IMG/VR virus record: IMGVR_UViG_3300007363_000118
Coordinates: 1-22,489 of that record
DNA: 22,489 bases
Source of the DNA: a virus
Reading direction: 5' to 3' (one strand)
Both the position numbers and the translations under genes were made by a program. Below the pieces are notes generated by a model. It saw nothing but the letters and a program-made list of their open reading frames with translations. It was not told the origin of the DNA and did no database searches. Shown piece after piece: positions 6,348-21,484 of the stretch; within the stretch, counting starts at the first letter, position 1, and each line of letters opens with the position of its first letter.

Positions 6348-8129
6348 TCAGGCCGTTGAAGAGTTGCTGTCTTCGATGTCGCTGCCCTGGTCGTCAGGAA
6401 GCGTCTCGAAGGTAAGGGACGTAGAACACTTAGTTTGCGTTAGCCACTCGGCGACGAGATTATCGCTGGAAAGCCGACACAGATGGAACCATTCGAGGCC
6501 GACGATGTCAACCAAGGGGCGGGTCGCGTCGAACGGTTCGGCGAACGTGATGATGGTTTTGCCAAGGTTCCCGCCCGTGCCCAACACGATGCTTGAGATG
6601 CGCTTATAGATCGTCTCGTCGGTGAATTCGATCTTCAACATACCGCGCGTGCGGACTTCGAAATAGTAGGCGCCGAAAAGCGTGCCTTCGACAACAAGCG
6701 TACTCTGCCCGAGCGTAACCCCGCTCGCCGCGACCGGGTCTTCATCCCGCCAATCCGGGATGTAGAATTCGCCGAGCCGCCCCTTCATTCGGTAGAAGAA
6801 ATGGCGCACCTGCTCAAACTCTGCGTGAGAGCGACAAGTGTAGTTGAAGCGCCAGCGGGACCGCATGTGATCGATCGAATAGCCACGATCAACGCGGCCG
6901 TAACCGGCGTCCACGAATGTCGTCGGCCAAATCATTTCGATCGGAACACCCGACACCCAGTTCGGTTCTTTTCGCCACACTTCTCGGCCGTCGATAAACT
7001 CCGTCGCGGCCGGAATCGTTTCGATCGGTTCCTCGCCGGGGACCGCAGTGAAGTCCATCGGGGCTTGCGTAAGATACCGGGAGGGGGCTGCAACGCTGAT
7101 CGAATCTTGCGGCCAGCTACGAATAGCCGGATGAATGCGCGTGCCGGCGGGCCACGCCGTTGCGTCGCCGGTCGTGAATTCCAAAACGTTATAATCGCTG
7201 GTGCTGTTGCTGTTCTCCGGGAGATCGGAGATGCGACGTAGGGCCACGCGGCGCCCATGGCGCAGTACGACATAGTTCAAGCGCTGCGCCCACCACGGCG
7301 GCGTTTGGTCGATCGCCACGGTATCGTCCAGCGAATTCATGTCTTCGGTCGTCGTGACGTAGCGCGAGAATTCAGGCACCATGAAGGTGCCCTTCTGATT
7401 CGCCGTCATGATCTGTTGCAGCAACAAGCTGTCTTCCAGATTCATAAGCAGTGACGCCATCTCGATGCGTTTGCGCGGTGTCTGTCGATTAGCGCGTCGC
7501 TGTTCGCTCCCGTTCGCGCTGACGATGATCCCGGTTTGGAATTCATAGGAGACCACGAACGACGAATTCCAGTTGTGCACGAACGGGTAGATGTCGAAGT
7601 TGAAGTCTGGCGAACGGTTGCCGGAGATAGGCAGCTCGGCGACAAGAGCCGGGTTGTCGTCGGTCGTGAAAGTGAAGAGCCCGGTCTCGGAAAGCGTTTG
7701 CTCCGTCGTGAAGAACGCCGTTGCGTTGTACTCGCGCGCCTGTAGGTGCTGGTACGTCGTGGGAGTCGCCGGACCTAGAATTCCGACTTCAGCCGTGTCC
7801 GTAGTGGTGAAGTTCGTCAGGATGACCGGATCGAGAAAGGCGTTCCACACGAGGAACGTTTGCGTCTCTTGCTCGGCCATCGTGCCGAACTGCAAAGGGT
7901 TCGGCAAAAAGTAGATGCGATTGTAGAAGTCGTGCACGAACGAAAACAGATAGTAGCTCGGGACGAACGATTGCTGATTCGTCTGTTGCTCCAAGACGTG
8001 CTGGAAACGCCCGAAACCCAGGTCGCGGCCGTCCTCCGCCGTAATCCGATTCTGGACTAGGGCTTCGTTGATCCCGCCTTCGCTGTTGATCGCGAAGGTT
8101 TCGAGGAGGCCGTACCGAACGCCGGGCAT
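6348..8129 (-). CDS. Tail tip structural protein with C-terminal DSNS tag
   Basis: The 593-residue protein has a C-terminal domain (about residues 410-575) typical of siphovirus tail proteins: a WRFNYTCRSHAEFEQVRHFF motif, then GRLGEFYIPDWRD, and an ending near SLTFETLPDD. The first 300 residues are less familiar and rich in aromatic residues and Thr (FVPSYYLFSFVHDFYNRIYF). The conserved part stops at LPDD, and the tail that follows carries EDSNS, four residues from the C-terminus. A variant ENSNS lies near residue 307. Start and stop overlap or abut the neighbours (TAATG upstream, two-base gap downstream). It likely forms the distal tail or tip surface. Confidence 0.75.
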   Translation of the reverse strand: MPGVRYGLLETFAINSEGGINEALVQNRITAEDGRDLGFGRFQHVLEQQTNQQSFVPSYYLFSFVHDFYNRIYFLPNPLQFGTMAEQETQTFLVWNAFLDPVILTNFTTTDTAEVGILGPATPTTYQHLQAREYNATAFFTTEQTLSETGLFTFTTDDNPALVAELPISGNRSPDFNFDIYPFVHNWNSSFVVSYEFQTGIIVSANGSEQRRANRQTPRKRIEMASLLMNLEDSLLLQQIMTANQKGTFMVPEFSRYVTTTEDMNSLDDTVAIDQTPPWWAQRLNYVVLRHGRRVALRRISDLPENSNSTSDYNVLEFTTGDATAWPAGTRIHPAIRSWPQDSISVAAPSRYLTQAPMDFTAVPGEEPIETIPAATEFIDGREVWRKEPNWVSGVPIEMIWPTTFVDAGYGRVDRGYSIDHMRSRWRFNYTCRSHAEFEQVRHFFYRMKGRLGEFYIPDWRDEDPVAASGVTLGQSTLVVEGTLFGAYYFEVRTRGMLKIEFTDETIYKRISSIVLGTGGNLGKTIITFAEPFDATRPLVDIVGLEWFHLCRLSSDNLVAEWLTQTKCSTSLTFETLPDDQGSDIEDSNSSTA

Positions 8130-9178
8130 TAGCTGTTGCTGTCCTCTTCGCCTGTTCTGTAGGCATAGCCGACCCAGTGGCTACTCAAGCTCACGGGATA
8201 CGACGACGCGCTGCTCTTGGTCATGTTCTTCGAGAGCTGCCGCGAGAGGGCGGGAAACACGAACCACTCGAAGCCGCCGACGATGATCTCTTGCTTCGGC
8301 GACAAGTCTTGCATGTTGACTGCGCGGATTCCAGCCGGGCGGCCGATTGGAATGAAAGACGAATCGCCGATCAACTGCTCCGTTGCGTAAAGATTGATCG
8401 GCACAAGAATGTTGGAACCAGCGAAGGGCGCTCGCGCTCTCGCGAGATACCCGTCATTGATACTGTCGTTGAACCCGCCTATGACCGCCTCGTTGCCCAT
8501 GTTGCTCAACGGGGCGGTGCTGATCGGGCCGAGGAATTTGCGCCACGGAACGTCGTTAGAGCCGGCGTCGGCGTAAACGCCGCCAGAAAAGGCGGCGCTC
8601 TTGAAGGAGGAACGCGCACTGAAAAGATATTTCATTCTCGTCGTCGAGTTGTACGCCGTCGTGCCCGTGATGGTACCGGGGCCGTCGCTAGCGCTGATCA
8701 CTTCGCCGCCTTCGTAGTCGCCGATCTTCTCCATGTTGCCGATATACATATGCCGGTAAATGTCGCCGGGATATTCGACGACGATGCCGATGTACGGCGC
8801 CGGCGATAAATCGCCGAAGAGATGCACGAAAGACGGCACAAGAACAGCGGCGGCCGTTTGGGCGGGGTCAGTAATTGGTGAGAAGAAATCGCAACCCGAC
8901 GTAATGATTGTGTCGAGCAAACTGTTGCTCGTGTAGTCGTACATTTCCAGGAAGAGACGGTGCGTAAGACCCGCCGCCGACGCTTGCAGTCGCCAGCGGA
9001 TCGGATCGCTCTCGTAGAACAGCGTGTTCGAGATGCTGTTTGAGTTGGGCGTGGGATTCCAGATAATCGGCTGAGACGGCGTAGAAAGGTCTACGCTGAA
9101 ACCGATCGTCTGTGCAAACGTCCCGACCAGGGCCGGGATATCCGTGATGGCGCTTACGGCGTGAAGTTCGTAGCTCAT
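8129..9178 (-). CDS. Tail structural protein ending in EEDSNS
   Basis: The 349-residue protein has no signal peptide and no catalytic motif. It is rich in Ser, Thr, Gly and aromatic residues, as virion beta proteins are. Features include a DIYRHMYIGNMEKIGDYEGG segment near residue 140 and a FEWFVFPALSR segment near 305. It shares a general plan with the next upstream protein (a central YxG...LFIG-like segment and a late V-G-F-x-W-F strand), so the two may be distant paralogs. The very last residues are EEDSNS, directly before the stop. The gene overlaps both neighbours by one to four bases (TAATG and ATGA). A tail-tip or fibre-base role is inferred from position after the tape measure. Confidence 0.65.
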   Translation of the reverse strand: MSYELHAVSAITDIPALVGTFAQTIGFSVDLSTPSQPIIWNPTPNSNSISNTLFYESDPIRWRLQASAAGLTHRLFLEMYDYTSNSLLDTIITSGCDFFSPITDPAQTAAAVLVPSFVHLFGDLSPAPYIGIVVEYPGDIYRHMYIGNMEKIGDYEGGEVISASDGPGTITGTTAYNSTTRMKYLFSARSSFKSAAFSGGVYADAGSNDVPWRKFLGPISTAPLSNMGNEAVIGGFNDSINDGYLARARAPFAGSNILVPINLYATEQLIGDSSFIPIGRPAGIRAVNMQDLSPKQEIIVGGFEWFVFPALSRQLSKNMTKSSASSYPVSLSSHWVGYAYRTGEEDSNS

Positions 9179-10221
9179 GGCGAATTGCTATCCTCGACGA
9201 GAAGGCTGTTGCTGTTTTCGGGGAACACTTCAACCGCAAACCACGAGTCGATCGCGGTGCGGAAAGCGTTTGAGAAGACGACGTGGACGCGATCGTCTAC
9301 AGAGATCAAGTTCTCCGGGCTCTGCCCCCGGCCGGTGACTTGATAGACGCCGTCGAGAACGCCGAGCGCTTGATCGGCTGGATTGAATTGATTGAGCGAG
9401 ATCGGCGCGAGGGCGAAGCCCCCGCCGTAAGTCTCGACGACGCGAGCCGCGACGGACTTGTATCCGTACCCGCCGCTATCCGCGTCTTGAACCAAGCTCT
9501 CGCCGAGGCCTAGCCCGGTGCCGAAATAGTTCGGCCCGAGCGCGACGTTTGCCGTAGCGCGATCGGCAGCGCAGCGCAGCCAGTCGCCTTGCGGCGACAA
9601 AAGCCATGCGCTCGTTTCCCAGCCCGTCGCAGCTTCGCTGTAAGATGCGAACGGGAAAAGCGAATGCTTCGTGGTAACGTCGCGCCAGTCCGCCGCTTCC
9701 GTAGGGCCGCCGTCTCCGGCCGCCGCGCCGATAAACAGCGGATAGGAGTATTGTGTGAGCGTTCCATAGGCGAGGAAGAAGCCAGCGTACAACGCTTGAT
9801 AGATCGTGCCGACTTTGATGACAACGATGAACCGGCGCCCCGAAGCGACGAACCAATAGTTCATCGGAGTAGTCTTCGAGAACATCTTCACCGCGCGCGG
9901 CGTGACGTTAATGTGGTCGGTGACTTGTTCGGCATTCGGCACAACACCCGTCATGCCGTAGACGTAGAACGTCGAGTTGTCCTCCGGCACGTTATCTTCG
10001 CGGCGCAAGCCGACGTAGATGTTGTCTGTCCCGGTTGAGCCGGGGCCGCGCAGGACGATGTCTGTGTCGTTCGGGTTGCCGCTGTTAGAGTCGTCCGCGA
10101 GCCAAGCCGTAGTCCACTGATCGCTGGCCGCGACGAGAGTTGGGTCCGTTGTGAGAAAAGCTAGCAGCTTATCCCAAAGGTCAACGTGACTGGACGCAGT
10201 TCCTGTTTGGTAAGCGGTCAT
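9175..10221 (-). CDS. Tail structural protein with internal and C-terminal DSNS tags
   Basis: The 348-residue protein starts TAYQTGTASSHVDLWDKLLA, continues through a VLRGPGSTGTDNIYVGLRRE segment, and has a YQALYAGFFLAYGTLTQYSY stretch near residue 145. This N-terminal pattern is familiar from structural proteins placed just after the tape measure in siphoviruses. It carries DDSNS near residue 46, in a probable loop before GNPND, and ENSNS plus EDSNS within its last 16 residues. The ATG overlaps the tape measure stop (ATGA) and its own stop overlaps the next ATG (ATGA). It is likely part of the tail tip complex; the exact role is unknown. Confidence 0.7.
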   Translation of the reverse strand: MTAYQTGTASSHVDLWDKLLAFLTTDPTLVAASDQWTTAWLADDSNSGNPNDTDIVLRGPGSTGTDNIYVGLRREDNVPEDNSTFYVYGMTGVVPNAEQVTDHINVTPRAVKMFSKTTPMNYWFVASGRRFIVVIKVGTIYQALYAGFFLAYGTLTQYSYPLFIGAAAGDGGPTEAADWRDVTTKHSLFPFASYSEAATGWETSAWLLSPQGDWLRCAADRATANVALGPNYFGTGLGLGESLVQDADSGGYGYKSVAARVVETYGGGFALAPISLNQFNPADQALGVLDGVYQVTGRGQSPENLISVDDRVHVVFSNAFRTAIDSWFAVEVFPENSNSLLVEDSNSP

Positions 10222-13200
10222 GAGAGAGCCTTTTTAATGCTGCGCTTGTTCGCTTGCATGAAATTTACGATTGCGGTCTGACCCGCGCGAGTCGAGAGGC
10301 CCTGAGAGACAAAGTCTCCGGGGTCGATCGTGTTTACCACCGTCACATCTGTTTTGCCAGCGCCCCCGCCGTTGTTGCGGTGCCGGGGGTCGGTTTCTGT
10401 CAGAACCTCTTCGCCGCGCTCCAAGATGGCGGGGACTTCGTTGCTGCGCAAGCCGGGGCCGCCGCCGCCGTGGTAGCGGTGTGCGTTTCGAAACACTGAA
10501 GCCGGAACCGCCCGAAGGCGGGCCGGTTCGCCAGCAATACCCCCTTCGTGCGCGACTTGCGCGGGTGAACCAGGGATAACCCCGCCGAGCCCCAGGAAAC
10601 CGAGCGTTGATTGGATCGCCTTAAGGATAAGCGCCTGAATGATCATCTGCGCGATCTGGCGCAGGAAGTCAGCCGCGAACTGCCGGAAGGCGTTCGCCAC
10701 CCCTTCGATCGCATCGCCCCAAGAGCTTGTGCCGGCGATGGCTTGCGCAATCGCATCAAGCGCCCCAAACACCGCGTTCGGGAGATCGCGCTCTAGGACT
10801 TCGACGATTTGGTCAAGCGTGATAAGGGCGGGCTGTATAATCTGTTCGTCGGCGCCGCGTGCGTCGCGAGCTTCTTCCGCTGCGTCCTTGTCGCCGAGCT
10901 GAATCGCCAGTTCTTCGGCAGCCACGGACGCATCGATAAGCTGAGTCGTAAGCTGCTCGACTTTCGCGCGCTGCGCTTCGATCGCTTCGGCGCCGGCGAA
11001 ATTGTTGATCAACTCGTTGAGACGTTCTTGAGCCTCGATACGATCTTGTTCCAGATCGCGCAGTTCTTCGAGTTGATCGTTCAGACGATCGCCCGCGTCT
11101 TCGCGTTCGAGAATTTGTCCGGTGATCTCCGCCCACAGGCGGCCTTCTTCGGTAAGAAGATCGATGTTCTGCCGTCGAGCTTCCCGTTCCAAACGCTCTT
11201 GTACGGAAATCGCTTCGCCGCGCAACTCGCGCAAACGGAACGTTTGCTCCTCAATGTCCGCGCGAACGCGCTCCGCTTGGATCGCGTCAAACGTCGCTCC
11301 GACGCTTTCCGTGATTGCGTCGCGCTGTTGTTGCGTCAGTTCGAGGCGGACCGCCCTAGCTTCGTTCTCCGCTTCGTAAAGAGCCTGTAGGACTTCTTGT
11401 TGTCGAGCCGTCTGCCCAATCAGGCTGACTTCGAATTGCCGGTCACGGATAGTTTGTTCAAGCTCTTCACGGAAACGACGCTGTTCTTCCGCCAGCCGTT
11501 GCGCATCCGTCCGTCGCCCACGGCGATCTTGCCGCGCACGATCCGCGAGGATGTCATTGATAGCGCGCTCCGCGCGCGCTTGATCTTCGGTGCCGGCAGA
11601 CAGTTCACGCAATTGAGCGATGCGCCGATCTTGGGCGTTCCGTTCGTTTTCCCGCCTGATCGTCGGGGCTTCTTCTTCAAGCTCGCGCAGAAGATCGGCG
11701 CGTTGCTGCGCGCGGACTTCGTTCTCAGACAGCGCAGAGTTTAGCGCTTCTACTTCACCCGTAGCTTCGTTGAAGCGCAAGCCGACGCGCTTGATCGCGT
11801 CTTCCAGATTGGGGAACGTCTTAGCGCCCAAGCGATCGGCCGTAACCGCAAGTTCGGCCGTAGCACGCTCGCCTTCCGAAGCCGCCTGAGTAGTGCGGAT
11901 CAATTGCGCGATGTAGTTTTGCAGCGGCGCGTCGTCGATCGATTCGAAAAGTTCGTTCAGTTCTCGCCGGTACTCGAAGGTGGTGAGGCGCCCGGCTGAG
12001 TATTCCCGAGACAAAGCGGCGACTTGGTTCTTGGCTTCTTCATTCGAAACATCGAGCCGGCGCAGAGAGTCGGACATATCGTCCACTTCCGCACGCGCTT
12101 CCACAACCGACTGCGCCGTTTCGATGAAGGAAGCGTTAAAGATCGCCAACACTTCTGCGTTGCTTGCGTCAACTGCCGCACGATTGAATTCACGAGCTTC
12201 GTCGGCGGCGGCTTTCGATTCAACTTGGAACTGTTCGAGCAAACGATTCGTGTCAAACAGCGATTGGTTCATCTCGTCTACGTCCGAAGCGGCGCCGACG
12301 AAAAGACTGCCGATAGCGAAAGTGGCGGCCGTCACAACGGCGAGCGGAGCCAACGCACGGCCGACAGTCAGAAGGGCCGTACCCGCTGCGCGGGCTGAAG
12401 CCGCAAGAGCGGCGAGACGCGCCTGCATAACCGCCGTGCCGCTTGCCCCTGCGACAACGGCAGCCGAATACGCTTGGAAGGATCGAATAAGCCCAACCGT
12501 AGCAACTGCCAGATTGGAAGTCGCAGCCGACAGAACGCCACGCGCAGCGGCGGCTTGCGTGTCTGTAGCGATGCCGGCCGCTGTTGCTTGTTGCGCCAAG
12601 ACTAAGCGGGCTATCAGCGCCGAGAACGAAGCGGTAAGGCTTAGAACAAATTGCGCCGCTTTAATCGAAACGAAAAGCTGAAGAGCCAACGCGAATTCGT
12701 CAATAAAATCCGTTGCCGCGATCAAGATATCGACGAACGTGCCGAGCGCGGCGCCCAGCTTGAGGAAGAATTCTTGGCCCTCTTCCGAATTGAACTTCTC
12801 CACGAGATCGTCGAGCGCCCGACCGAGAGCGTCGGCAAACCCGCCTTGCGCGACCGTCGCTTGCGCGCGGGTTAGCGCGTTGCCGAAACGGCCGAGACCG
12901 GCGTTCAGGGATTCTATCGCCGTAGGCAAACCGCCGCTAAACTCTTGGCGCAGAGCGCGGGCGAAGTTGAGAAGATTGGTTTCGTTCGCTACAAGCTGAC
13001 CCGTGCTGATAAGACGAATAGCTTCAGCCGTGGATACACCCAAGCTCTCAGCGAACAAACCGAGCGCGCCGGGAAGTCGGTCACCCAACTGTTGACGCAG
13101 TTCTTCAAGAGAGAACGCGCCTTTCGAAATGATTTGAGTAAAGGCGTTGTAAGTGCCTTGAGTCTGTTCAACCGTGAGGCCGAGAACGCGCGCAGTTTCC

Positions 13201-14801
13201 GCAATGGAGGAGAAAATCTCCCGCGTTGCTTCTGTCGAAATGTTAGCCTGCCGCCCGGCAGCCGCGAACTTACCAAACTCCTGCGCCAGCGAGACGTAGG
13301 ATATGCCGAGTCGATCGGCTTCACCGCGAACGAAGCGCAGTGCGTTGCCGGCGAGGACGGCGTCGCCGCCGGTCGCCGCAAGCGTGGCCGCCGCCGCGCG
13401 TTCAAGATCAGTGAAGACCTTGACTACGCTTTGAAGCTGAATGATCGCAGCATAAACACCGGCAAACTGTACGGTTAGGCTAAGCAGTTCGCCGCGCACG
13501 CGCTTGGAAATCTGTCCGAGCGAACGAATACCATTGCCGAAAACAGCGGTGCCTTGGTTCGCTTGTGTGGCCGCAACGCGAGTGCGCTCAAACGATTGGG
13601 CGAGGTTAACGTTAACACCCGTAAGCGAACGAATGGCCCGCTCGAACCCCGCAATGCGCTGGGTTTGCAGCGCTTCGGCGAGCGCTTGTTGCTGGCGCTT
13701 ATAGGCGGCGGATGCTTGATCCGCGTTAGCTTTAGCGATGAGGAAAGAGCGGGCCAGAGAGTCGGACGGCGCCGTCGCCGCGCGCATGGCTTGCCCTAGC
13801 CGATCGACTTCCGCTTGGGCTCGCAGGAACGCGTCACGAGCGCCGTTAACTGCCAACTCTTGTTGGCGCAACGTCTTAACGGTTTGGGCCGCTTCACCAG
13901 AGCTGCCGAGAGAGCGCTGCCGCTGTAGCGCGGCGTTAAGTTCGTTAATCTCTTGGGCGGCGCGGGACGACGCTTCAGCGATAGCTTTTTCGTCTGCGGC
14001 CAGCCCGCCGAGAGCGCGCGAGGCCACGTCAGTAGCGCTCTTCAGTTCCGCATACGCAGCATTCGCTTCGTCAAGCCGACGCGACTGTTCGAGAGTCGTT
14101 TGCGCCGAGCGATCGAACTGTCGGTTAAGGTTGACGAGATTGCGTTCGGCAGCTTTCAGTTCGCGACTGAGGGAGTTGTAAGCCTGTTGAGCGGAAGCCA
14201 CTCGGGCGCGTTGCTGCGCAAGCTCGTCGCGATTGGCGACTTGAGCCTGCGTCAATCGGATCAATTCATTCTGTTGGTCCCGGATCGATTCACGCAGCGT
14301 TTCGCTAGCTTGTCCGCCCTGACGGTACGCTGCAATGAGGAGACGATAGCGCGCGGCAGCTTGCCCGACTTCCGCAGCGAGAGCGCGTTGAGACTGAACC
14401 GTAGCGTCGGTTTCGGCTTTCTGCGCCGCGAGCGCCGCTTCCGCCTGCCGGAATTCGTTCTGGATTTCCTGGACGGCGGTAGCGGCCTGAGACGCGGAAA
14501 CCGAGAGTTGCGTGAATTCCGCCCGGCTGCCGGCGACGCGGGCTTCCAGCGCCTGAAGCGCGGCGCCCGCTTGTTGGAATTGAGACGCCAGTTTCGCGAA
14601 GCTGTCGAGCTGCGCCGACTTGGCCTCAAGGCCGGCGATTTCCGTTTCCAGTTCCCCGACAAGCCCGCTCGTTTTCGAGGCAGCTTGACCGGCTTTTGCT
14701 TGAGACGCCGAGAAACGGTCCAGGGCGCCGGACACATTGTCGAGCGCCTTGCGGGCGTTGTCGCGGGCTGTGATGACTAGCTCGGCTTCCCGGCGGGCCA
14801 T
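10218..14801 (-). CDS. Tail tape measure protein
   Basis: The 1527-residue protein is the longest in the window. Residues 1-400 are coiled coil with heptad-like Ala, Gln, Glu and Arg. A tape-measure domain spans about 460-600 (RGEADRLGISYVSLAQEFGK, then SLEELRQQLGDRLPGALGLF). Hydrophobic segments lie near 440, 700-735, 805-835 and 1375-1405. A second coiled coil occupies about 980-1300. The C-terminus has the typical HEGGIAG, RYHGGG and EVPAILERGEEVLT pattern. In this class the protein sets tail length and leaves through the tail at DNA entry. At about 1.5 angstrom per residue, a tail of roughly 230 nm would be predicted (rule of thumb). AGAGGA precedes the ATG. No DSNS motif is present, consistent with an interior position. 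Confidence 0.95.
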   Translation of the reverse strand: MARREAELVITARDNARKALDNVSGALDRFSASQAKAGQAASKTSGLVGELETEIAGLEAKSAQLDSFAKLASQFQQAGAALQALEARVAGSRAEFTQLSVSASQAATAVQEIQNEFRQAEAALAAQKAETDATVQSQRALAAEVGQAAARYRLLIAAYRQGGQASETLRESIRDQQNELIRLTQAQVANRDELAQQRARVASAQQAYNSLSRELKAAERNLVNLNRQFDRSAQTTLEQSRRLDEANAAYAELKSATDVASRALGGLAADEKAIAEASSRAAQEINELNAALQRQRSLGSSGEAAQTVKTLRQQELAVNGARDAFLRAQAEVDRLGQAMRAATAPSDSLARSFLIAKANADQASAAYKRQQQALAEALQTQRIAGFERAIRSLTGVNVNLAQSFERTRVAATQANQGTAVFGNGIRSLGQISKRVRGELLSLTVQFAGVYAAIIQLQSVVKVFTDLERAAAATLAATGGDAVLAGNALRFVRGEADRLGISYVSLAQEFGKFAAAGRQANISTEATREIFSSIAETARVLGLTVEQTQGTYNAFTQIISKGAFSLEELRQQLGDRLPGALGLFAESLGVSTAEAIRLISTGQLVANETNLLNFARALRQEFSGGLPTAIESLNAGLGRFGNALTRAQATVAQGGFADALGRALDDLVEKFNSEEGQEFFLKLGAALGTFVDILIAATDFIDEFALALQLFVSIKAAQFVLSLTASFSALIARLVLAQQATAAGIATDTQAAAARGVLSAATSNLAVATVGLIRSFQAYSAAVVAGASGTAVMQARLAALAASARAAGTALLTVGRALAPLAVVTAATFAIGSLFVGAASDVDEMNQSLFDTNRLLEQFQVESKAAADEAREFNRAAVDASNAEVLAIFNASFIETAQSVVEARAEVDDMSDSLRRLDVSNEEAKNQVAALSREYSAGRLTTFEYRRELNELFESIDDAPLQNYIAQLIRTTQAASEGERATAELAVTADRLGAKTFPNLEDAIKRVGLRFNEATGEVEALNSALSENEVRAQQRADLLRELEEEAPTIRRENERNAQDRRIAQLRELSAGTEDQARAERAINDILADRARQDRRGRRTDAQRLAEEQRRFREELEQTIRDRQFEVSLIGQTARQQEVLQALYEAENEARAVRLELTQQQRDAITESVGATFDAIQAERVRADIEEQTFRLRELRGEAISVQERLEREARRQNIDLLTEEGRLWAEITGQILEREDAGDRLNDQLEELRDLEQDRIEAQERLNELINNFAGAEAIEAQRAKVEQLTTQLIDASVAAEELAIQLGDKDAAEEARDARGADEQIIQPALITLDQIVEVLERDLPNAVFGALDAIAQAIAGTSSWGDAIEGVANAFRQFAADFLRQIAQMIIQALILKAIQSTLGFLGLGGVIPGSPAQVAHEGGIAGEPARLRAVPASVFRNAHRYHGGGGPGLRSNEVPAILERGEEVLTETDPRHRNNGGGAGKTDVTVVNTIDPGDFVSQGLSTRAGQTAIVNFMQANKRSIKKALS

Positions 14802-14803
14802 GC

Positions 14804-15513
14804 TTAATCCTCTTGAAGCGATTTAATCAGGGCGCGAAAAGCCTTCTGCCCCTTCCTATCGAGGACAGATATAATAGCGCCCTGGATCAAAATCGCCTCG
14901 GTTATAAGCCGGGAGTTAGCGCGGCGACGCACCCGCTTGGCTTCGGCTAACAGGTGCGTCAGCGGCCAGTGCGCGGCTTCCGGGCGTCCGTGCTCGCAAA
15001 CGAGGCTTTGGGCCTCGCGGATGCTCTCAAGCCACTCTCTTAGTTGACGCTCGGCGGGGAGGTATCGGGAGCCTTTTTGTCCTTGTTCAGCAGTCGCATC
15101 TTTTCCCGAAGGCCCCCGGCGATGCGTTTTACGGCGGCCATCGTCTCCCCCAGGGAGGCATCCTCGAAAGTCAGCTCGACGGCCGCTTCGAGAATCGCGA
15201 GCTGCGCGTAGGCGGGGAGCCGGCCGGCGACCTCCCGGCCCTCGTCGTTATACTCGTTGACCGAGTGGGCGATGATGTCCTTCAGTGCTTCCGGCGCCGT
15301 GGCGGCGAGGATCGTGAACAGGAAGCCCACGTCAAGGCCGGCTTGACGGTTGAAGCCCTCCGGGTAGTGCTTGTTCACGATGTCGAAAATGAGATCGCCG
15401 TAGGTGGCGACGACTGCGAGGATTTCCGTACCCGAGAGGCCCCGGACGGTGATCGTGTCTTCGCCGATCTCGACGGGGAGGGTGCGGAATTTTAGGTCTC
15501 TAAGCTTAGCCAT
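14804..15513 (-). CDS. Tail assembly chaperone, frameshifted long form (gpGT-like)
   Basis: The stretch 14804-15039 has no ATG-started gene of its own, yet the -1 frame is open from the slippery run at 15073-15079 to a TAA at 14804, two bases before the tape measure ATG. A -1 slip would add 89 residues to the first 147 of the short form. The added part begins GSRYLPAERQLREWLE and has a helical, charged makeup. The position, frame and end point match the lambda G-GT arrangement, which is widely conserved in long-tailed phages. In lambda the T part recruits the tail tube protein. The frame contains no good GTG or TTG start with a ribosome site, so frameshifting is the simplest reading. Confidence 0.78.
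15040..15513 (-). CDS. Tail assembly chaperone, short form (gpG-like)
   Basis: The 157-residue protein (MAKLRDLKFRTLPVEIGEDT onward) contains TVRGLSGTEILAVVATYGDL, then a helical region and a charged C-terminus. This is the usual look of the small chaperone encoded just before the tape measure. In the family it coats the tape measure during tail assembly and is not in the virion. I chose the ATG at 15513. Another ATG two codons upstream (15519) is equally possible. Longer starts would lie inside the Mom-fusion gene. The start overlaps the stop of that gene by eight bases. A slippery run lies 12 codons before the stop (separate entry). Confidence 0.85.
   Translation of the reverse strand: MAKLRDLKFRTLPVEIGEDTITVRGLSGTEILAVVATYGDLIFDIVNKHYPEGFNRQAGLDVGFLFTILAATAPEALKDIIAHSVNEYNDEGREVAGRLPAYAQLAILEAAVELTFEDASLGETMAAVKRIAGGLREKMRLLNKDKKAPDTSPPSVN
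15073..15079 (-). promoter_or_regulatory. Probable -1 programmed frameshift site, CAAAAAG
   Basis: Read on the minus strand, the chaperone frame is GAC AAA AAG GCT. The last two codons before the slip are the AAA AAG pair, the classic bacterial A-site/P-site slippery combination, although the first base of the heptamer is C rather than A. Slipping back one base opens an 89-codon extension. I see no obvious strong stem directly downstream, though GC-rich sequence follows. The real efficiency is unknown. Confidence 0.7.
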
Positions 15514-16495
15514 TTTCATCTTTCTTTGCCGGTACGAACTTGTACGCCTGAGAGCCGCTTGCCCACTTTTGGTTTCCACGAGGAACCCGAACCCAGTTCT
15601 GATCGAACGCTTCAACAAGCTCCGGGATTACGTGAACCCAGGCGATCAGCTCGGTTTTGCCTTTGACTGCACCTTCCAGGTCGCGGCTCTTTCCCCCTGA
15701 ATACGTCGGGAGGCGGGCTCCGTCAACTGTATATGTAGGACGGTGCGAAACGCCCGCCACTTGCCAGCCCGAGCATTGGTAGACGTACCCGGTGTGCCCC
15801 TGCCCTGAATCGCTGTAGGTCAGCAAAGTCGGCCAGCGGGTTCGGTCTATGCCGTGCTTCATTTGCCACAGGAGCGGCTTGGAGACGTGCTTGAGACGGC
15901 GTTGGTCTTTGGGTAAGGCGCACATGCGCGTCAAAGCGAGAACGCCGTGCGGAGCGGAGCCCCCGTAGAGCTGCGCAGGGCCGGGAGGGGGTGGGCCCCA
16001 AGTATAGGCGGCAACGACTTTACCGTCTTCCCAAACGGTGAAAACGTAGGTTGGCATTTTCGGGCAAGAGGCGTAGCCGTGATGAGAGACGATAAGTTCG
16101 GCGGCTTCTTTTAGATGGCCTTGGCGGATATCGAATCGCGGTGCGCTGAGGGCGTGGTCAAAGCGGTTACCTTTTTTACTGTTCTGTTCGGGAGTGAGAT
16201 ACTGTAGGTTCGTGTGCACGTGCAAACCCGAAACGCTATCACCTTGAAGCGGAATAACGTGGTCTACTCTATTTTTTGCGTGGTAAGCGGCGTTTTTCTC
16301 TCGGTATTCGCCTTTCTTACGTTGGTACCTTTCACGCTCGTAAGCCCGTATTTGCGGTTTGTTCCTTCGGTACCGAGATGACGTACACGCTACGCAACCC
16401 CCGTGAACGTAATACTCGAAATGCCCGTTTTTACACGGTTTTTGCCGCATATATTTGTTTTGTCCTGAGGCGAGGGCCTGTTGGCGGGGCGACAT
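15506..16495 (-). CDS. HNH endonuclease fused to a Mom-like DNA-modifying acyltransferase
   Basis: Residues 1-40 form a Cys-rich module (R-QQALASG-NKY-PC-NGHF-Y-GGCVAC, with C21, C34 and C37) that is repeated in the other HNH protein. Residues 77-112 are an HNH core (VDHVIPLQG, GLHVHTNLQYLTPEQNSKKG). From about residue 120 to 312 the protein is a different domain. It contains ELIVSHHGYASCPKMPTYVF, GVLALTRMCALPKDQRRLKH and YSDSGQGHTGYVYQCSGWQ, the signature of Mom-like GNAT proteins. Mu Mom converts adenine to a methylcarbamoyl-type derivative and protects DNA from restriction. The join is in frame, and no Met occurs between residues 17 and 146, so a separate Mom product from ATG would lack its N-terminus. 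It overlaps the chaperone gene by eight bases. Domain calls are by eye. Confidence 0.8.
   Translation of the reverse strand: MSPRQQALASGQNKYMRQKPCKNGHFEYYVHGGCVACTSSRYRRNKPQIRAYERERYQRKKGEYREKNAAYHAKNRVDHVIPLQGDSVSGLHVHTNLQYLTPEQNSKKGNRFDHALSAPRFDIRQGHLKEAAELIVSHHGYASCPKMPTYVFTVWEDGKVVAAYTWGPPPPGPAQLYGGSAPHGVLALTRMCALPKDQRRLKHVSKPLLWQMKHGIDRTRWPTLLTYSDSGQGHTGYVYQCSGWQVAGVSHRPTYTVDGARLPTYSGGKSRDLEGAVKGKTELIAWVHVIPELVEAFDQNWVRVPRGNQKWASGSQAYKFVPAKKDENG
16209..16235 (-). repeat. Conserved HNH-core DNA segment, copy 1
   Basis: This 27-base stretch encodes the SGLHVHTNLQ part of the HNH-Mom core and differs at two positions from the matching segment at 19112-19138 in the other HNH gene. The close DNA match, with little synonymous drift, suggests recent common origin or exchange between the two genes. 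Confidence 0.7.
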
Positions 16496-16503
16496 GGTTT
16501 CCG

Positions 16504-16532
16504 ATTATACGCAAAAGCTGTGCCGCAGACAA
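16504..16532 (-). promoter_or_regulatory. Probable sigma-70-type promoter for the HNH-Mom gene
   Basis: On the minus strand TTGTCT and TATAAT are spaced by exactly 17 bases. The -10 is perfect and the -35 shares TTG and the overall T-rich shape. The expected start of transcription falls about two bases before the ATG at 16495, so the mRNA would be nearly leaderless, and no good ribosome site precedes that ATG. The -35 begins just past the terminator of the tail tube gene. Confidence 0.6.
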
Positions 16533-16563
16533 GCGAAAGGGCGGCCCCCGAAGAAACCGCCCT
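16533..16563 (-). terminator. Rho-independent terminator after the tail tube gene
   Basis: On the minus strand AGGGCGG and CCGCCCT form a 7-bp GC-rich stem around a 12-base loop, followed by TTTCGC. The T run is short, so it may only reduce readthrough. It begins 22 bases after the tail tube stop codon. Confidence 0.65.
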
Positions 16564-16584
16564 CTCACCGGCTTCCACCCCGGA

Positions 16585-17412
16585 TTAGAACAGCGCCGCG
16601 TCGTCCACGTAGGCCGCCGCGCGATCGGTGCGCTTGAGGATTTCGACATTAAAAGGAATAGTCAACCAATCGCTTTCGGCCTTGAGGGCGTAATCGCCGT
16701 TCGGCGAGATCGTCACATACGGGAAGTAGTAGGTAACGTTATCGCCGCGCGCGTTGTTCGTGATGTAGCGCAGAGCGCCCGTCACAGCCGTAGAGCCGGA
16801 AAGCACACGCTCGTAGGTGCGGGCCTTCACGATGTACTGGACGATGATATCCGTGCCATCGGCGATGGCGCCGCCCGGCTTGATCCAGAGACGACCGTGC
16901 CGGTAATCCATCACGTAGTCGGTGCCTTCGATGTATTCGACGCCGCCCAGCGTGTTCGAATCGTTCTCGACAACCTTAAAGGCGCCGGCCGAGTTCGAGT
17001 CGGTGGTGGCGCCGACGATGTTTCGCGCGCCGGAGGGACGGGACGCCGTGATGCCAAGTTGGTAGTAATAGCCTTGCTGAACGTCGTTGAATTCTTCCGT
17101 CGCCGCGCCGCCCGCGTCCACGACGCTTTCCTTGGAGCCGAAGAAGAACAGAGCAACGTTGTCGAGATTGATGTTGTCGGTCGTGAACGAGCCCGAGCGG
17201 GACACTTCGAGAGAGATAGAGGCGTCCTTCTCGCGGACACCGGCTTCGGCGGAGAAGTGGTCAAGCTTCTCTTCTTCGAGCGAAATGGTAAATTCGGGCG
17301 TGTTGCCGAAATAGAGTTCGCCCGCGAGGGCGTAGGTCGTCTCGTTGGTCATCCGGGCGAAATACAGTTCGCCGCGCCCAAGGACGTAGTTGTTGGTTTC
17401 GCCATTAGCCAT
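16585..17412 (-). CDS. Major tail tube protein
   Basis: The 275-residue protein begins MANGETNNYVLGRGELYFAR and has an NTPEFTISLEEEKLDHFSAE segment. This strand-rich pattern is found in siphovirus tail tube proteins that stack as hexameric rings. A C-terminal beta region follows (YYFPYVTISPNGDYALKAES). Placement between the tail terminator and the chaperone, plus its own terminator, fits a highly expressed tube gene. An insertion-like loop in the middle (about residues 130-160) carries DSNS (ATTDSNSAG) and DSNT (VENDSNTLGG) 13 residues apart. In tube proteins such loops often face outward, so these may be surface exposed (inference). Confidence 0.88.
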   Translation of the reverse strand: MANGETNNYVLGRGELYFARMTNETTYALAGELYFGNTPEFTISLEEEKLDHFSAEAGVREKDASISLEVSRSGSFTTDNINLDNVALFFFGSKESVVDAGGAATEEFNDVQQGYYYQLGITASRPSGARNIVGATTDSNSAGAFKVVENDSNTLGGVEYIEGTDYVMDYRHGRLWIKPGGAIADGTDIIVQYIVKARTYERVLSGSTAVTGALRYITNNARGDNVTYYFPYVTISPNGDYALKAESDWLTIPFNVEILKRTDRAAAYVDDAALF

Positions 17413-17473
17413 AATCGAAACTCCCAGGTTAGGCCGCGCCTGAACACCTTAAGGTAAATAGGGCGCAGCCCGC

Positions 17474-18037
17474 TTAGAGGTAAGGGGTACGCAGGTTTTC
17501 CGCGATACGGATGGTCAGGAGGAGCCAGAAATAGGAATGCTGAGACGAGTTTTCATCGGGCGGCCGGATCACCGGGGAACCGATGGAAATGGAGTCCACG
17601 ACCGGCTTGCCGTTTTGGAGCACCCCGAGAAGCCCCTGCGCAGGGTCTAGGAGCGGCCCAGACGCTTGAGAGGGGTGGAGGCGGGCTTTGTCCCGCTCCG
17701 CCGCCAGCGCCGCCACAACGTCCGCTGCGAGATGATACGCGGGATCAGTGGGGTTGACGCGATCCGGCTCGGCGAAACCCTGCACGAGCAGGTTCCAGTC
17801 GTACAGGGACAGAGCCCCCCGCCGGGTCTCGATAATCGCCTCTTCAGGCTGGGGGGCTTCCAGGATTGAGACGCACGGAACGGGGTCGTCAGCGCCGAAG
17901 AACAGCCGACCCCGAAAGACGCGGCCGGCAAGCGTGTGCCGGTAGCCGCTGGCGCTGTTGGAATCTTCGGTGACGGCTTCGAGTACGCCCGTCAGTGCGT
18001 TGAGGACCCGAAGGCGAACAGGGGTGTCAAAAGCCAT
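17474..18037 (-). CDS. Probable tail terminator/completion protein
   Basis: The 187-residue protein sits between the gp10-like neck protein and the tail tube, the usual place of the tail terminator. It starts MAFDTPVRLRVLNALTGVLE and has central segments LYDWNLLVQGFAEPDRVNPT and HLAADVVAALAAERDKARLH, ending in a strand (YFWLLLTIRIAENL). This alternation of strands with a long helix is typical of the gpU-like fold. EDSNS lies near residues 23-27 in a probable loop (TEDSNSASG). The start overlaps the upstream stop (TAATG). The family call rests on position and general pattern. Confidence 0.65.
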   Translation of the reverse strand: MAFDTPVRLRVLNALTGVLEAVTEDSNSASGYRHTLAGRVFRGRLFFGADDPVPCVSILEAPQPEEAIIETRRGALSLYDWNLLVQGFAEPDRVNPTDPAYHLAADVVAALAAERDKARLHPSQASGPLLDPAQGLLGVLQNGKPVVDSISIGSPVIRPPDENSSQHSYFWLLLTIRIAENLRTPYL

Positions 18038-18600
18038 TAGGCAAAAACCTTACTCAGACGAAGGAATTCTCGCTCGGCGCGCAATAAGATCAGCGGCTCT
18101 ACCTCCACGAATACGCCTCGCGTCGCGGTCCTGTCAAGGAGCCCTTGGGCTAGGGACGGGCCGAACAGAAGCCACAGATCGCGGCCGACGCGGCGGGGCT
18201 TGTAGGCCGTACGGGGTTTGCGAGGAGAACGAATCGCGAACCCACCGTCCGCGAAATTCACGACGTTAGGCAGGGTGCGGACTCGGCCCGGCTTAACTTC
18301 GACGCGCGCTGTCCGGCCTTTCGAGCCGGTCTTGAACTGCGCCAGCGGCAGCGGATCGGAGGCCCCAGTCAGCCGCCCTTCGAGCGAGGCGCCGCCAGCG
18401 AAACGGATAGCGATACCGCCACCCGAGCCAGATACCTCGCTTCGAGGCAGGCGAATTTGCTGGCGGATGCGGCGGGAAGCTTCTGCCCGGCCGAAACGGA
18501 GCGCGGTGTTCACCGCGCGCGCTGCGTTCTTTCGAATGTCCGTTGTCTGGAAATCGAGCCGAAGCTGGCGAACGTTGGTGGCGGGCTTAAACTCGATCAA
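18037..18600 (-). CDS. HK97 gp10-like / minor tail Z-like neck protein
   Basis: The 187-residue basic protein opens with FRQTT-type strands and a helix (NAARAVNTALRFGRAEASRR), then a long basic stretch (KTGSKGRTARVEVKPGRVRT) and an ending LLRAEREFLRLSKVF. This resembles gp10/gpZ-type tail completion proteins, which lie between connector and tail terminator genes. It likely acts at the head-tail or tail-end junction. The start codon is TTG, not ATG, and overlaps the previous stop as TTGA. No ATG nearby gives a better start. There is no DSNS motif. Confidence 0.68.
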   Translation of the reverse strand: MIEFKPATNVRQLRLDFQTTDIRKNAARAVNTALRFGRAEASRRIRQQIRLPRSEVSGSGGGIAIRFAGGASLEGRLTGASDPLPLAQFKTGSKGRTARVEVKPGRVRTLPNVVNFADGGFAIRSPRKPRTAYKPRRVGRDLWLLFGPSLAQGLLDRTATRGVFVEVEPLILLRAEREFLRLSKVFA

Positions 18601-18998
18601 TCGGGAACCGGCAATCCTGCCGCCTCTGCGTCGGTCAGGCGGGAAACTTCCGCCGTGACGGTGATGTTGTCGTGAGGGCGGACAAGATCAACGATATAAG
18701 CTTCGCCGGTCGCGACTGAGAACACGTTGCCGCGCTGAAGGGTAATCCCGGCTTCGGTGAGATCGGCGCGCAAAGCGATAATCTTCGGGACGAAGTCGTA
18801 TTTCGTGGCCCATCCTTCGCCTTCCGGGTTCTCGCCGGTAAGGGCGATGCGATCGTGAACCCGAACATACAGCGTCGTAAGGCCGCCTTCGCTGTTCGAG
18901 TCTTCGGTGTAGGGGAGAGAGGCGATGTAATACGCCGCGACTTTAAACGTCTCGTGAACCGCCTGCCGGGCTGCGTCTCGCTGTTCGCGCCAACTCAT
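18597..18998 (-). CDS. Head-tail connector/head completion protein
   Basis: The 133-residue protein begins MSWREQRDAARQAVHETFKV and continues with a beta domain (TTLYVRVHDRIALTGENPEG, then VTAEVSRLTDAEAAGLPVPD at the end). The size and position between the capsid and gp10-like genes fit a head-tail connector or stopper. I use the ATG at 18998, where AGGA lies five bases upstream and the ATG overlaps the HNH gene stop (ATGA). An earlier ATG at 19034 would run inside the HNH gene. EDSNS is at residues 32-36 (YTEDSNSEGG), between the first helix and the first strand, a likely exposed loop. The ribosome site is supplied by the end of the HNH gene, so the two are coupled. Confidence 0.68.
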   Translation of the reverse strand: MSWREQRDAARQAVHETFKVAAYYIASLPYTEDSNSEGGLTTLYVRVHDRIALTGENPEGEGWATKYDFVPKIIALRADLTEAGITLQRGNVFSVATGEAYIVDLVRPHDNITVTAEVSRLTDAEAAGLPVPD

Positions 18999-19840
18999 GC
19001 TAATCCTCGCTCCCGAAGCCAGTTTATCTGCCACGCTTCCGCCGCTTCAGCGTCTTCACGGGTGTAATGGTTTCCTTTAGAAGAATTCCTGCCCGGTGTT
19101 AGATATTGGAGATTCGTGTGCACGTGCAAGCCTGAAACGATTCTCTTCCCGCCCCGACGCCCTTGAAGTGGGATTATGTGGTCTACCGTCATTCCGGGCG
19201 GGCAATTGACGTAAACGCGAGCGTTCGCTTCGTGGTCGGCCCACGGCGGGGTGCGTTCAATTTTAGCCGCACGGCGCTTGTTTTCAATCGCGGTGGCGCG
19301 GCCCCGATTCTGTTTTTTCCAAGTTTTGTTTCTGCGCTGGCTCTCCTCGCGCTTCGCGTCGTTAATTTGATACTCAGTTCGCCGTTTTTCCCGAAGTGCG
19401 GCGGCGTGGGCGGACCTCCACGCGGTTTGTTGTTTCTGGATTTTGCCCCGGTTTTCCCGGCCGTATCTTTTTTGGTAGGCGGCGCAACAAACAACACACG
19501 CGCCATTAGTGTATCGCTTATAGTGACCTGATTTACAGGGGCTTAGCGGGGTGTAAATAGACAAACCTAAACCGATAGCTTCCGCGCGGGTTAACCCTTC
19601 GGGGTTTTCCGCCCGCAGAGCGGCGTGTTTCTCTTCGCGAGATTTTCGGGTCTTTTCCGCGTTCAACGTATTTCGGTGCGCCTTTTTAACCGGGTCGCGT
19701 TTATAGCGGGCTTGGTATTCGGCCCTGCACGGTACGCACGCCCCCGTTGCCACGTGCCGCAGATTGCCGCGACAACGCTTGCACGGCGCATCTGCCGCGT
19801 AAACTTTCAACCCGAGAGCAACTGCATCCTTGCGCTTCAT
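18995..19840 (-). CDS. HNH homing-type endonuclease with two Cys-rich modules
   Basis: The 281-residue protein carries two copies of a Cys-rich module (residues about 4-38 and 84-119: AVALGLKVY...PCKRCRGN...GACVPC and AIGLGLSIY...PCKSGHYKRYTNGACVVC). A very basic helical linker follows, then an HNH core at about 219-258 (TVDHIIPLQG, VSGLHVHTNLQYLTP, NSSKGN). The paired cysteines suggest zinc-binding DNA-contact modules. HNH enzymes of this type nick or cut DNA and often move between phages. It lies between the major capsid gene and the connector, starts right after a terminator, and its stop overlaps the next ATG (ATGA). The sibling at 15506-16495 shares one module and the core. Confidence 0.85.
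   Translation of the reverse strand: MKRKDAVALGLKVYAADAPCKRCRGNLRHVATGACVPCRAEYQARYKRDPVKKAHRNTLNAEKTRKSREEKHAALRAENPEGLTRAEAIGLGLSIYTPLSPCKSGHYKRYTNGACVVCCAAYQKRYGRENRGKIQKQQTAWRSAHAAALREKRRTEYQINDAKREESQRRNKTWKKQNRGRATAIENKRRAAKIERTPPWADHEANARVYVNCPPGMTVDHIIPLQGRRGGKRIVSGLHVHTNLQYLTPGRNSSKGNHYTREDAEAAEAWQINWLRERGLA
19112..19138 (-). repeat. Conserved HNH-core DNA segment, copy 2
   Basis: The partner of 16209-16235, in the separate HNH endonuclease gene. It encodes the same VSGLHVHTN part of the core, with two differences in 27 bases. Together they could serve as a site for recombination between the two cassettes (inference). Confidence 0.7.
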
Positions 19841-19846
19841 TTCCTT

Positions 19847-19875
19847 CTTGTACGCAAAATCTGCGCCAAAGAAAA
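19847..19875 (-). promoter_or_regulatory. Promoter-like element before the HNH gene
   Basis: On the minus strand TTTTCT and TACAAG are separated by 17 bases. The block aligns with the promoter of the HNH-Mom gene (shared core TTTTGCGTA-AA and surrounding bases, 17-base spacing). It is weaker than that promoter: the -10 has two mismatches and the -35 overlaps the terminator T run. Predicted initiation falls at or next to the ATG. Confidence 0.4.
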
Positions 19876-19902
19876 GCCGGCGACGCTTTCACGCCGCCGG
19901 CT
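19872..19902 (-). terminator. Rho-independent terminator after the major capsid gene
   Basis: Minus strand AGCCGGCGGCG and CGTCGCCGGCT pair in an 11-bp stem (one G-T) around the loop TGAAAG, followed by TTTTCTTT. It starts 22 bases after the capsid stop. This is the strongest terminator in the window and would lower transcription from the head genes into the HNH and downstream genes. Confidence 0.85.
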
Positions 19903-19924
19903 CTCCTAACTCACGGCTTCCAAA

Positions 19925-21007
19925 TTAGAGGCCGGGGCTGTTGCTGTCGTCAACCGGAACAGCATTGGCGATACGAGCCGAGCGGTTCGGGTAGACGGGG
20001 ATCGGAAGCGGAGCCGATTGCGTCATGATGAAGATGCCGGACGGGTCCGGTTGCATCCACATTTTCGGATACACGCTCATGGCCTGAAGGTTCGCTTCGT
20101 GATCCATGATCGCACCGAAAGCCATGACGCCGCCCGGATCGGCGCCGGTGAACACGACATCGCCCTGACGCATGAAGAACACTTGGTTCCCGTTGGCGTC
20201 TTCATAGAAGTCCTGGTTCAGCCAGAGTTCGATGCCTTCACCCAGGAGGCCAAGGAAACGAACGTTGGAGTTCCGGTCCACTTGCACGATGCCGCGCTCG
20301 ATATCGACGTTCGAACGCTTGTAGTTCAGGTCCATCAAGTCCTTGAGCTTCGTGTTGTTGCGGATTTTCTTCCACACGGAGCCGCCGATGTCGATACGGA
20401 CGCAGGCGCCGCCGAACTCGGCTTCGCGCATACGGTCGCACATTTGCTCGATTTCGAGCACGACATCATAAGTATCGGTCCAGTAGTTCGACGTTTTCGT
20501 GACGGTGAGGTTGCTGGCGCGACCGAAGTCCACAAGCTGATCGTCGCCGTCCTCGTACTCGACGAGAACCTTGCCGTAAATGTGAGCTTGGGCGCACATC
20601 TGCTCCCAACGGCGCTCGATAATGGCACGATGCCATGCCATCACTTCAGCGACTTCCGCGTCCCGGTTTTGCTCCGGGGTGCGCGGGGCGTCCGACAGAA
20701 GATCGCCCGAGCGACGCGAGAATTGCTCGCCGGCCCAAACCGCATCCTTCGGCTTGATATACGCCGGACGGTAGGTCTCAACGCGCGAGCCGTTGCGGGT
20801 CCACGTCGCGACGCCGGTGCGAGTCGGATGCACGAAGGGGGCGACACGACGCCGGCCCGTGATCTTCTCGAACACGATGTCTTGGGTCGTGAAGTTCTGC
20901 ACATTGGATGCAAAACCGCCAAGCTGCATGAACGTCCGCGACGGAGCTTCCAGGCGAGCGTCGCGATAGACCGCCAGAAGGGTGCGTGGATCAAGAATAG
21001 TGACCAT
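19925..21007 (-). CDS. Major capsid protein, lambda gpE family
   Basis: The 360-residue protein starts MVTILDPRTLLAVYRDARLE and has the E-family pattern: a TQDIVFEKITGRRRVAPFVH segment, a KPKDAVWAGEQFSRRSG segment, a long helix region (AWHRAIIERRWEQMCAQAHI) and a late PDPSGIFIMTQSAPLPIPVY. Length is close to the family (lambda gpE has 341). In the family it builds the icosahedral shell. The C-terminus ends VPVDDSNSPGL, with the DSNS tag four residues from the stop. It follows the decoration gene after 12 bases, with GGGGGAAC upstream of the ATG, and has its own terminator. Confidence 0.93.
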   Translation of the reverse strand: MVTILDPRTLLAVYRDARLEAPSRTFMQLGGFASNVQNFTTQDIVFEKITGRRRVAPFVHPTRTGVATWTRNGSRVETYRPAYIKPKDAVWAGEQFSRRSGDLLSDAPRTPEQNRDAEVAEVMAWHRAIIERRWEQMCAQAHIYGKVLVEYEDGDDQLVDFGRASNLTVTKTSNYWTDTYDVVLEIEQMCDRMREAEFGGACVRIDIGGSVWKKIRNNTKLKDLMDLNYKRSNVDIERGIVQVDRNSNVRFLGLLGEGIELWLNQDFYEDANGNQVFFMRQGDVVFTGADPGGVMAFGAIMDHEANLQAMSVYPKMWMQPDPSGIFIMTQSAPLPIPVYPNRSARIANAVPVDDSNSPGL

Positions 21008-21019
21008 TAAGGTTCCCCC

Positions 21020-21484
21020 TTACGTCAGTTCAGTGGGCGTAGCGGTGCCCGGTTGGTCAACCGTGATACCCGTACCTGTTTGGGCGAGGCGGTTGCGCAG
21101 CAGAGCGAGCGTCCAGCCGGCACCTTTCGTAATGGCATCGTAATTGAAGCCGCCATCGATGTAGTAGGTGACGCCTTCGACGCCGGCCGCACCACCGGCA
21201 GAGTTCGAGGAGACGAACGCAGAGTTCGAGTCTTCGACCGCGACCGCGCGGGTCGTGATGCCGACAGGGTTTTGCGAGCCGTCCGTCGCCGTAGCGGAAG
21301 AGAGCACCAGCATGTTCGTCTCGGTCACGATGCCGACGAGCGAATACGCCGCGAGATCGGTAGCCGTCAGACCTTCAGACACGCGCGTCGGCGCGGGGCC
21401 GCCCGCCAGAAGCAGATTCGGAGGGGTGAAGACTTCGCTTTCGCCGAAAGCCACACCCGGAACATAGTTGCCAAGGACAGTCAT
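21020..21484 (-). CDS. Head decoration protein, lambda gpD-like
   Basis: The 154-residue protein has the D-family pattern: an early LLAGGPAPTRVSEGLTATDL segment, a central beta part (VLSSATATDGSQNPVGITTR) and a YYIDGGFNYDAI segment matching the FN motif of HDPD-type proteins. In the family, trimers sit on the capsid surface and stabilise it. EDSNS and a nearby SSNS lie in one loop (AVEDSNSAFVSSNSAGG, about residues 82-98). GGGAG precedes the ATG and the gene begins 12 bases after the protease stop. It is longer than lambda gpD (110 residues), partly because of this loop. Confidence 0.85.
   Translation of the reverse strand: MTVLGNYVPGVAFGESEVFTPPNLLLAGGPAPTRVSEGLTATDLAAYSLVGIVTETNMLVLSSATATDGSQNPVGITTRAVAVEDSNSAFVSSNSAGGAAGVEGVTYYIDGGFNYDAITKGAGWTLALLRNRLAQTGTGITVDQPGTATPTELT

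Follow-up and report, generated by a model that had tools for sequence, protein, structure and literature searches.

A four-residue peptide, Asp-Ser-Asn-Ser (DSNS), recurs across the virion proteins encoded by the IMG/VR virus record IMGVR_UViG_3300007363_000118, a stretch of 22,489 nt (the window, 22.5 kb) that forms part of a siphophage related to Casjensviridae. Nine copies lie in frame in eight virion proteins, all on the minus strand. Our analyses indicate that the peptide, in the form [D/E]DSNS, is probably an acceptor tag for glycosylation of the virion surface by the phage's own glycosyltransferases, with serine O-glycosylation as the most likely type of modification. The tagged phages are a small and uncultured group. 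Virion glycosylation is known from a few phages.

Enrichment and placement of the DSNS peptide

The repeated peptide had been noticed in a sequence-only reading of the window, and all nine of the coordinates given there proved correct, in frame and on the minus strand. Eight of the nine copies are preceded by E or D, as reported (six EDSNS and two DDSNS; the ninth is TDSNS), and the near matches ENSNS, DSNT and SSNS are present as listed. Two S-N-S sites can be added in the gene at 8129-9178: SNS (8921-8929) and NSNS (9035-9046). The window proteins total 7119 residues, for which composition predicts 0.065 DSNS, in agreement with the earlier estimate of well under one. Within-protein shuffles reached a maximum of 2 copies (2000 trials), and the codon-shuffle control that had been proposed, applied to the virion genes, gave a mean of 0.07 and again a maximum of 2 (2000 trials), far below the observed counts. 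DSNS is the most over-represented 4-mer in the window, and EDSNS the most over-represented 5-mer. Greedy calling of open reading frames misses genes with long antisense frames, and key counts were made on homology-confirmed reading frames. The carriers and their tag sites in the window are as follows.

6348-8129, minus strand: distal-tail-type protein (Pfam DUF2460; phrog_1082), carrier, tagged in 6/6 phages
6360-6374, minus strand: EDSNS close to the C-terminus of the distal-tail-type protein
7203-7217, minus strand: ENSNS in the distal-tail-type protein, an insertion without counterpart in untagged homologs
8129-9178, minus strand: lateral-fibre protein, JBD30 gp48-like (phrog_687; weak match to JBD30 ORF), carrier
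8132-8146, minus strand: EDSNS at the extreme C-terminus of the gp48-like protein
8921-8929, minus strand: SNS (TSNS) in the gp48-like protein, conserved in G001
9035-9046, minus strand: NSNS within an insertion of the gp48-like protein
9175-10221, minus strand: lateral-fibre protein, JBD30 gp47-like (match to 8rk3 chain c, E 9e-31), carrier
9181-9195, minus strand: EDSNS in the C-terminal tail of the gp47-like protein
9205-9219, minus strand: ENSNS in the C-terminal tail of the gp47-like protein
10081-10095, minus strand: DDSNS in an inserted loop of the gp47-like protein
16585-17412, minus strand: major tail tube protein, YSD1_22-like (match to 6xgr, E 2e-56), carrier
16951-16962, minus strand: DSNT in the second inserted loop of the tube protein
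16990-17001, minus strand: DSNS in the first inserted loop of the tube protein
17474-18037, minus strand: tail terminator (phrog_5078, E 1e-46), carrier
17954-17968, minus strand: EDSNS in an inserted loop of the terminator
18597-19034, minus strand: connector or tail-attachment protein (phrog_4858; matches AchV4 'putative tail attachment protein'), carrier
18891-18905, minus strand: EDSNS in an inserted loop of the connector
19925-21007, minus strand: major capsid protein, YSD1_17-like (match to 6xgp, E 2e-41), carrier
19937-19951, minus strand: DDSNS in the capsid C-terminal tail, with D-S-N-S invariant across six phages
21020-21484, minus strand: head decoration protein (phrog_49, E 5e-13), carrier
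21200-21211, minus strand: SSNS, second half of the decoration protein's paired tag, DSNS in relatives
21221-21235, minus strand: EDSNS, first half of the decoration protein's paired tag

These identities agree with the sequence-only reading for the capsid, decoration, connector, terminator and tube proteins, but two carriers that it had placed at the tail tip (8129-9178 and 9175-10221) belong to the lateral-fibre family of JBD30 gp47 and gp48. The decoration protein gave no match in a sequence search against the PDB.

Relatives came from glycosyltransferase and alignment queries. The glycosyltransferase encoded at 1460-2329 of the window, used as a query, led to a 68.5 kb contig (G001) whose virion proteins also carry DSNS, and a family alignment search yielded four further long contigs of 60-70 kb (G005-G008). 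All five are tag-rich, encode glycosyltransferases 49-56% identical to that of the window, and together with the window phage constitute the six phages compared here. A 10 kb fragment (L127) with DSNSVVDSNS in its decoration protein is a seventh tagged member. Scans of viral contigs with single proteins (the gpL-like protein and one fibre protein) returned no relatives. A second contig, L002, is 100% identical over 5.5 kb and continues upstream of the window, where it adds portal and terminase genes. Achromobacter phage AchV4 (38%) ranks first among the cultured relatives of the capsid, and the matches of capsid and tube to the solved YSD1 homologs 6xgp and 6xgr identify a Casjensviridae-like phage of the lambda/chi type. 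In a tree of capsid sequences from which the tail was left out, the six tagged phages fall in one clade (100/98), whose sister group (L138/L141/L144) is untagged.

At least one S-N-S/T site is found in each of the six phages in the decoration, capsid, connector, terminator, tube, both lateral-fibre and distal-tail-type proteins. DSNS is absent in all six from the protease, gp10-like, chaperone, tape measure, gpL-like, gp52, gp53 and glycosyltransferase proteins, and just two S-N-S/T matches, both in the protease, occur in this non-carrier set. The absences claimed earlier for the tape measure, chaperone, gp10-like and gpL-like proteins therefore hold; that of the hub holds for the window but not for its relatives, four of five of which have DSNS there (an S-N-S/T site is present in the hub of 4/6 phages). 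The outward-facing proteins of the six phages contain 64 DSNS in 19,289 residues, where 0.32 would be expected and shuffled sets (n=300) held at most 4. None occurs in the 18,311 residues of their interior or non-virion orthologs, and the carrier proteins of six untagged relatives (12,434 residues) hold none either. In the JBD30 structure paper, gp47 and gp48 are arms projecting from the baseplate, and the upper baseplate protein gp50 has a buried C-terminus; the gpL-like protein, taken as the counterpart of gp50, is without a tag. Confined to outward-facing insertions and tails, kept in six phages and missing from untagged relatives, the peptide lends strong support to the earlier proposal of a shared surface tag, and we have little doubt that it is one.

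In the relatives, the tag is found as well in DUF2793 tip fibres, with 3-7 DSNS apiece, in fibres rich in glycine and in small proteins 65-92 amino acids (aa) long. The DUF2793 tip fibre (G008 37748-38740 and orthologs) repeats a block resembling GDSNSTETxVxxALDDLY, so that the tag is regularly spaced along it. The small proteins lie near the glycosyltransferase gene (G001 21904-22179; G006 25898-26176; G007 28520-28717; G008 43239-43445), are similar in their N-terminal half and bear at least one DSNS each; they are possibly fibre parts.

Alignments reveal that most tags are short insertions or C-terminal extensions relative to untagged homologs, and the homolog comparison suggested by the sequence-only reading indeed shows the motif gained in the same loops. 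In an alignment of 38 tube sequences, the tag-bearing inserted block is restricted to the six tagged phages. An AlphaFold2 model of the tube (predicted local distance difference test, pLDDT, 86) does not refute the earlier interpretation either, as it places both sites in loops on either side of a short strand. Aligned to YSD1, the region is expected to fall within external domain 2. The D-S-N-S of the capsid tail is invariant among six proteins that are about 50% identical to each other, and no other capsid in an 80-locus set has DSNS at that position. The capsid of an otherwise untagged relative (L099 4527-5579) ends in DPSNS, possibly by chance, or possibly as an incipient or remnant tag.

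The 114 DSNS copies are encoded by 33 different 12-base codings, with serine codons of both the AGY and TCN types, which points to selection at the peptide level and rules out an origin as a DNA repeat. S-N-S forms a strict core (132 observed versus 6.6 expected, 20-fold); SNT is merely 2-fold enriched and TNS is unenriched. The residue preceding S-N-S is mostly D, then N, S, G and E, and the one further upstream is mostly E or D. It is practically certain that the tag is real and under selection. The shortness of the motif is the sole point in favour of chance, composition bias or a mobile DNA repeat, and the probability of such an origin is negligible given the ceiling of two copies in the window shuffles, the diversity of codings, and the fact that six diverged phages share the carriers and often the very loops used.

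The glycosyltransferase and the glycan cassette

The candidate for reading the tag, on which the earlier reading had made no remark, is encoded within the window.

1460-2329, minus strand: glycosyltransferase of predicted MptE/Maf/CstII fold, 289 aa, proposed tag-reading enzyme (phrog_4603, E 1e-31)

Its match to phrog_4603 spans profile positions 1-174 of 178, which assigns it to that family. The match to the Pfam MptE-like family PF01973 (E 1.5e-5, 25.3 bits) lies below the curated cut-off of 34.6, as does that of the G008 ortholog (29.5 bits), and a sequence search against the PDB gave an insignificant match only. An AlphaFold2 model built from 20 sequences (pLDDT 83, with low confidence in the N-terminal 60 residues) has the MptE-like/GT42-like catalytic fold seen in Maf (DUF115) proteins: its best Foldseek match in the PDB is Maf 5mu5 (E 5.6e-6), followed by an archaeal HPPK of the MptE type and then the CstII sialyltransferase. 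The additional N- and C-terminal domains of Maf are not present (289 aa versus 632 aa for 5mu5). With these domains missing and the Pfam score under the cut-off, we rejected the label Maf for this enzyme and refer to it as Maf-like.

The distribution of the enzyme follows that of the tag. Its profile matched in none of 42 untagged records and does match in L127. Loci with glycosyltransferases 28-39% identical to the window's are tag-free except for isolated single matches, and a scan of bacterial genomes found only enzymes of 25-37% identity, with no tag enrichment. In G001, the start of the glycosyltransferase gene and the stop codon of a tail gene that bears the tag overlap. A conserved four-gene block is also present in 5/5 long relatives, directly upstream of the terminase small subunit.

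Cassette gene 1: phrog_28018 protein, with relatives annotated as nucleotide-diphospho-sugar transferases
Cassette gene 2: S-adenosylmethionine (SAM) methyltransferase
Cassette gene 3: second phrog_4603 (MptE-like) protein
Cassette gene 4: protein carrying a W-x-D-x-D-M signature; its relative in phage S20 bears a glycosyltransferase annotation

The first of these genes occurs in 6/6 tagged records versus 0/28 untagged capsid relatives. Since the tagged phages form one clade, the tag and the enzymes look like one joint acquisition that was then retained, after which individual tags, as in the hub and fibre proteins, look to have been further gained and lost.

Proposed glycosylation of the tag and its alternatives

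Only the tagged phages encode this set of sugar-transferring enzymes, suggesting that the peptide is a mark for sugar coating. In the mechanism that we propose, the Maf/CstII-fold enzyme, its MptE-like paralog in the cassette, or both would add the first sugar to a serine of the tag, and the two other glycosyltransferase-like cassette proteins and the methyltransferase would extend and cap the glycan. With tags inserted as loops and C-terminal tails across nearly all outward-facing virion proteins, the particle would become glycan-coated, and the coat may act as a shield or as an aid to attachment. Glycosylation of the tag, the modified serine, the enzyme responsible, the nature of the sugar and any benefit are deduced, whereas the tag with its enrichment, its placement in outward-facing proteins, its gain by insertion, its protein-level constraint, its co-occurrence with the glycosyltransferase genes and the Maf-like fold are observations. 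A modification acceptor read by phage glycan enzymes would account for the restriction to outward-facing proteins, the insertion as loops and tails, the strictness of so short a motif and the match with one enzyme clade. The sequence-only reading had offered a modification acceptor, a metal-binding loop and a host-contact epitope as options. Because the tag is restricted to the clade with the Maf-like glycosyltransferase and glycan cassette, we favour the acceptor over the other two and consider it very likely.

Several points weigh against glycosylation by these enzymes. The glycan on the tags is a prediction from genes and sequences, and the cassette lies outside the window, leaving a single glycosyltransferase visible for the window phage itself. 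As all tagged phages form one clade, the co-occurrence of tag and enzymes, though it favours a functional link, counts as one evolutionary event. Threonine is rejected at the first serine position, which is stricter than usual for O-glycosylation. Maf enzymes glycosylate surface-exposed Ser/Thr, but the family has no known sequon and its known members act on flagellin (PMC11339370). Finally, PMG1 (D3-like), PAJU2, CcrPW and S20 have related enzymes, and no comparable recurring peptide was detected in them.

The tag could instead be modified by a host enzyme or another phage enzyme, with the Maf-like protein and the cassette serving host surface glycans or DNA modification. Phage glycosyltransferases do often target DNA or host polysaccharide (PMC12619734), and relatives of the first cassette protein are annotated as nucleotide-sugar transferases in unrelated phages that lack the tag. 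We consider this unlikely, as the tag follows the glycosyltransferase clade precisely, the gene adjoins tag-bearing tail genes and the enzyme's fold matches that of a protein glycosyltransferase. An unmodified binding motif, whether it docks a protein of phage or host (e.g. a lectin-like or decorating one), binds metal or contacts a receptor, would fit a surface-exposed and strictly conserved peptide with many copies per particle, as well as the small tag-bearing proteins. It is slightly less probable still: copies on the head and neck as well as on the tube, tip and fibres would be superfluous for one binding site, the enzyme clade would be left unexplained, and we know of no metal-site geometry that the motif matches.

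Known glycosylation systems and neighbouring genes

Glycosylation by phage-encoded glycosyltransferases has its closest precedent in the mycobacteriophages, where glycans are found at the C-termini of capsid and tail tube subunits according to the account of Freeman et al. (2023) in PMC12619734. The window phage likewise encodes its glycosyltransferase and has candidate acceptor serines on exposed parts of the capsid (the C-terminal tail) and tube (inserted loops). Unlike in that account, it bears a defined four-residue tag in at least eight unrelated virion proteins, loops included, its enzyme is Maf/CstII-like, and its glycan is a predicted one. The best solved-fold match likens the enzyme to the Maf (DUF115) flagellin O-glycosyltransferases, from which it differs in size and domains, as described above, and in its proposed acceptors, which are virion proteins.

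The tag also resembles the bacterial N-glycosylation sequon of PglB, D/E-X-N-X-S/T, in having an acidic residue two positions ahead of Asn. Unlike that sequon, most tags have no Ser/Thr at the second position past Asn; what usually comes next is A, G, L, T, E, P, D or a stop. A small minority of the 158 sites have Ser/Thr as the final residue of the sequon, and N-glycosylation of the PglB type was ruled out.

Proteins of phrog_4603 annotated as 'alpha-2,3-sialyltransferase' in D3/PMG1, PAJU2, CcrPW and S20 belong to the same family and are often encoded among morphogenesis genes, but these phages differ from the window phage in showing no DSNS enrichment. A search for recurring peptides in PMG1, PAJU2, Domovoi, CcrPW, S20 and EBPR siphovirus 3 found none comparable. 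Phage S20 (L071) has about eight genes at 26950-33219, between its capsid and head-closure genes, that include several glycosyltransferases, two sialyltransferase-like proteins and a methyltransferase, a glycan cassette inside the head genes; no recurring peptide was found in this phage despite the cassette.

Non-exhaustive text searches of the literature (for the tag word and for phage sequons) yielded no description of a short portable tag across head, neck, tube, fibres and tip. We lean towards a lineage-evolved glycosylation code, in which a strict four-residue sequon was inserted repeatedly over the virion surface and is read by a Maf-like glycosyltransferase together with a glycan-building cassette. 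If so, this would be the first defined sequon for a Maf-like enzyme fold and a particle-wide glycan coat, showing how a virus can coat its whole particle through one peptide added many times. Were DSNS the sequon, the specificity of Maf-type enzymes would become testable, a portable O-glycosylation tag would be gained, and glycan-coated phages could be spotted in metagenomes by this sequence signature.

Two HNH-like genes, both on the minus strand, are interspersed among the virion genes of the window. One, at 18995-19840, is inserted between the connector and the capsid. The other, at 15506-16495 between the chaperone and the tube, joins an HNH-like N-terminal part to a Mom (DNA modification) domain (PF25680, E 1e-12), a fusion that looks unusual. 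The motif GLHVHTNLQYLTP is common to both genes, and the sequence repeats that they share suggest related mobile endonucleases.

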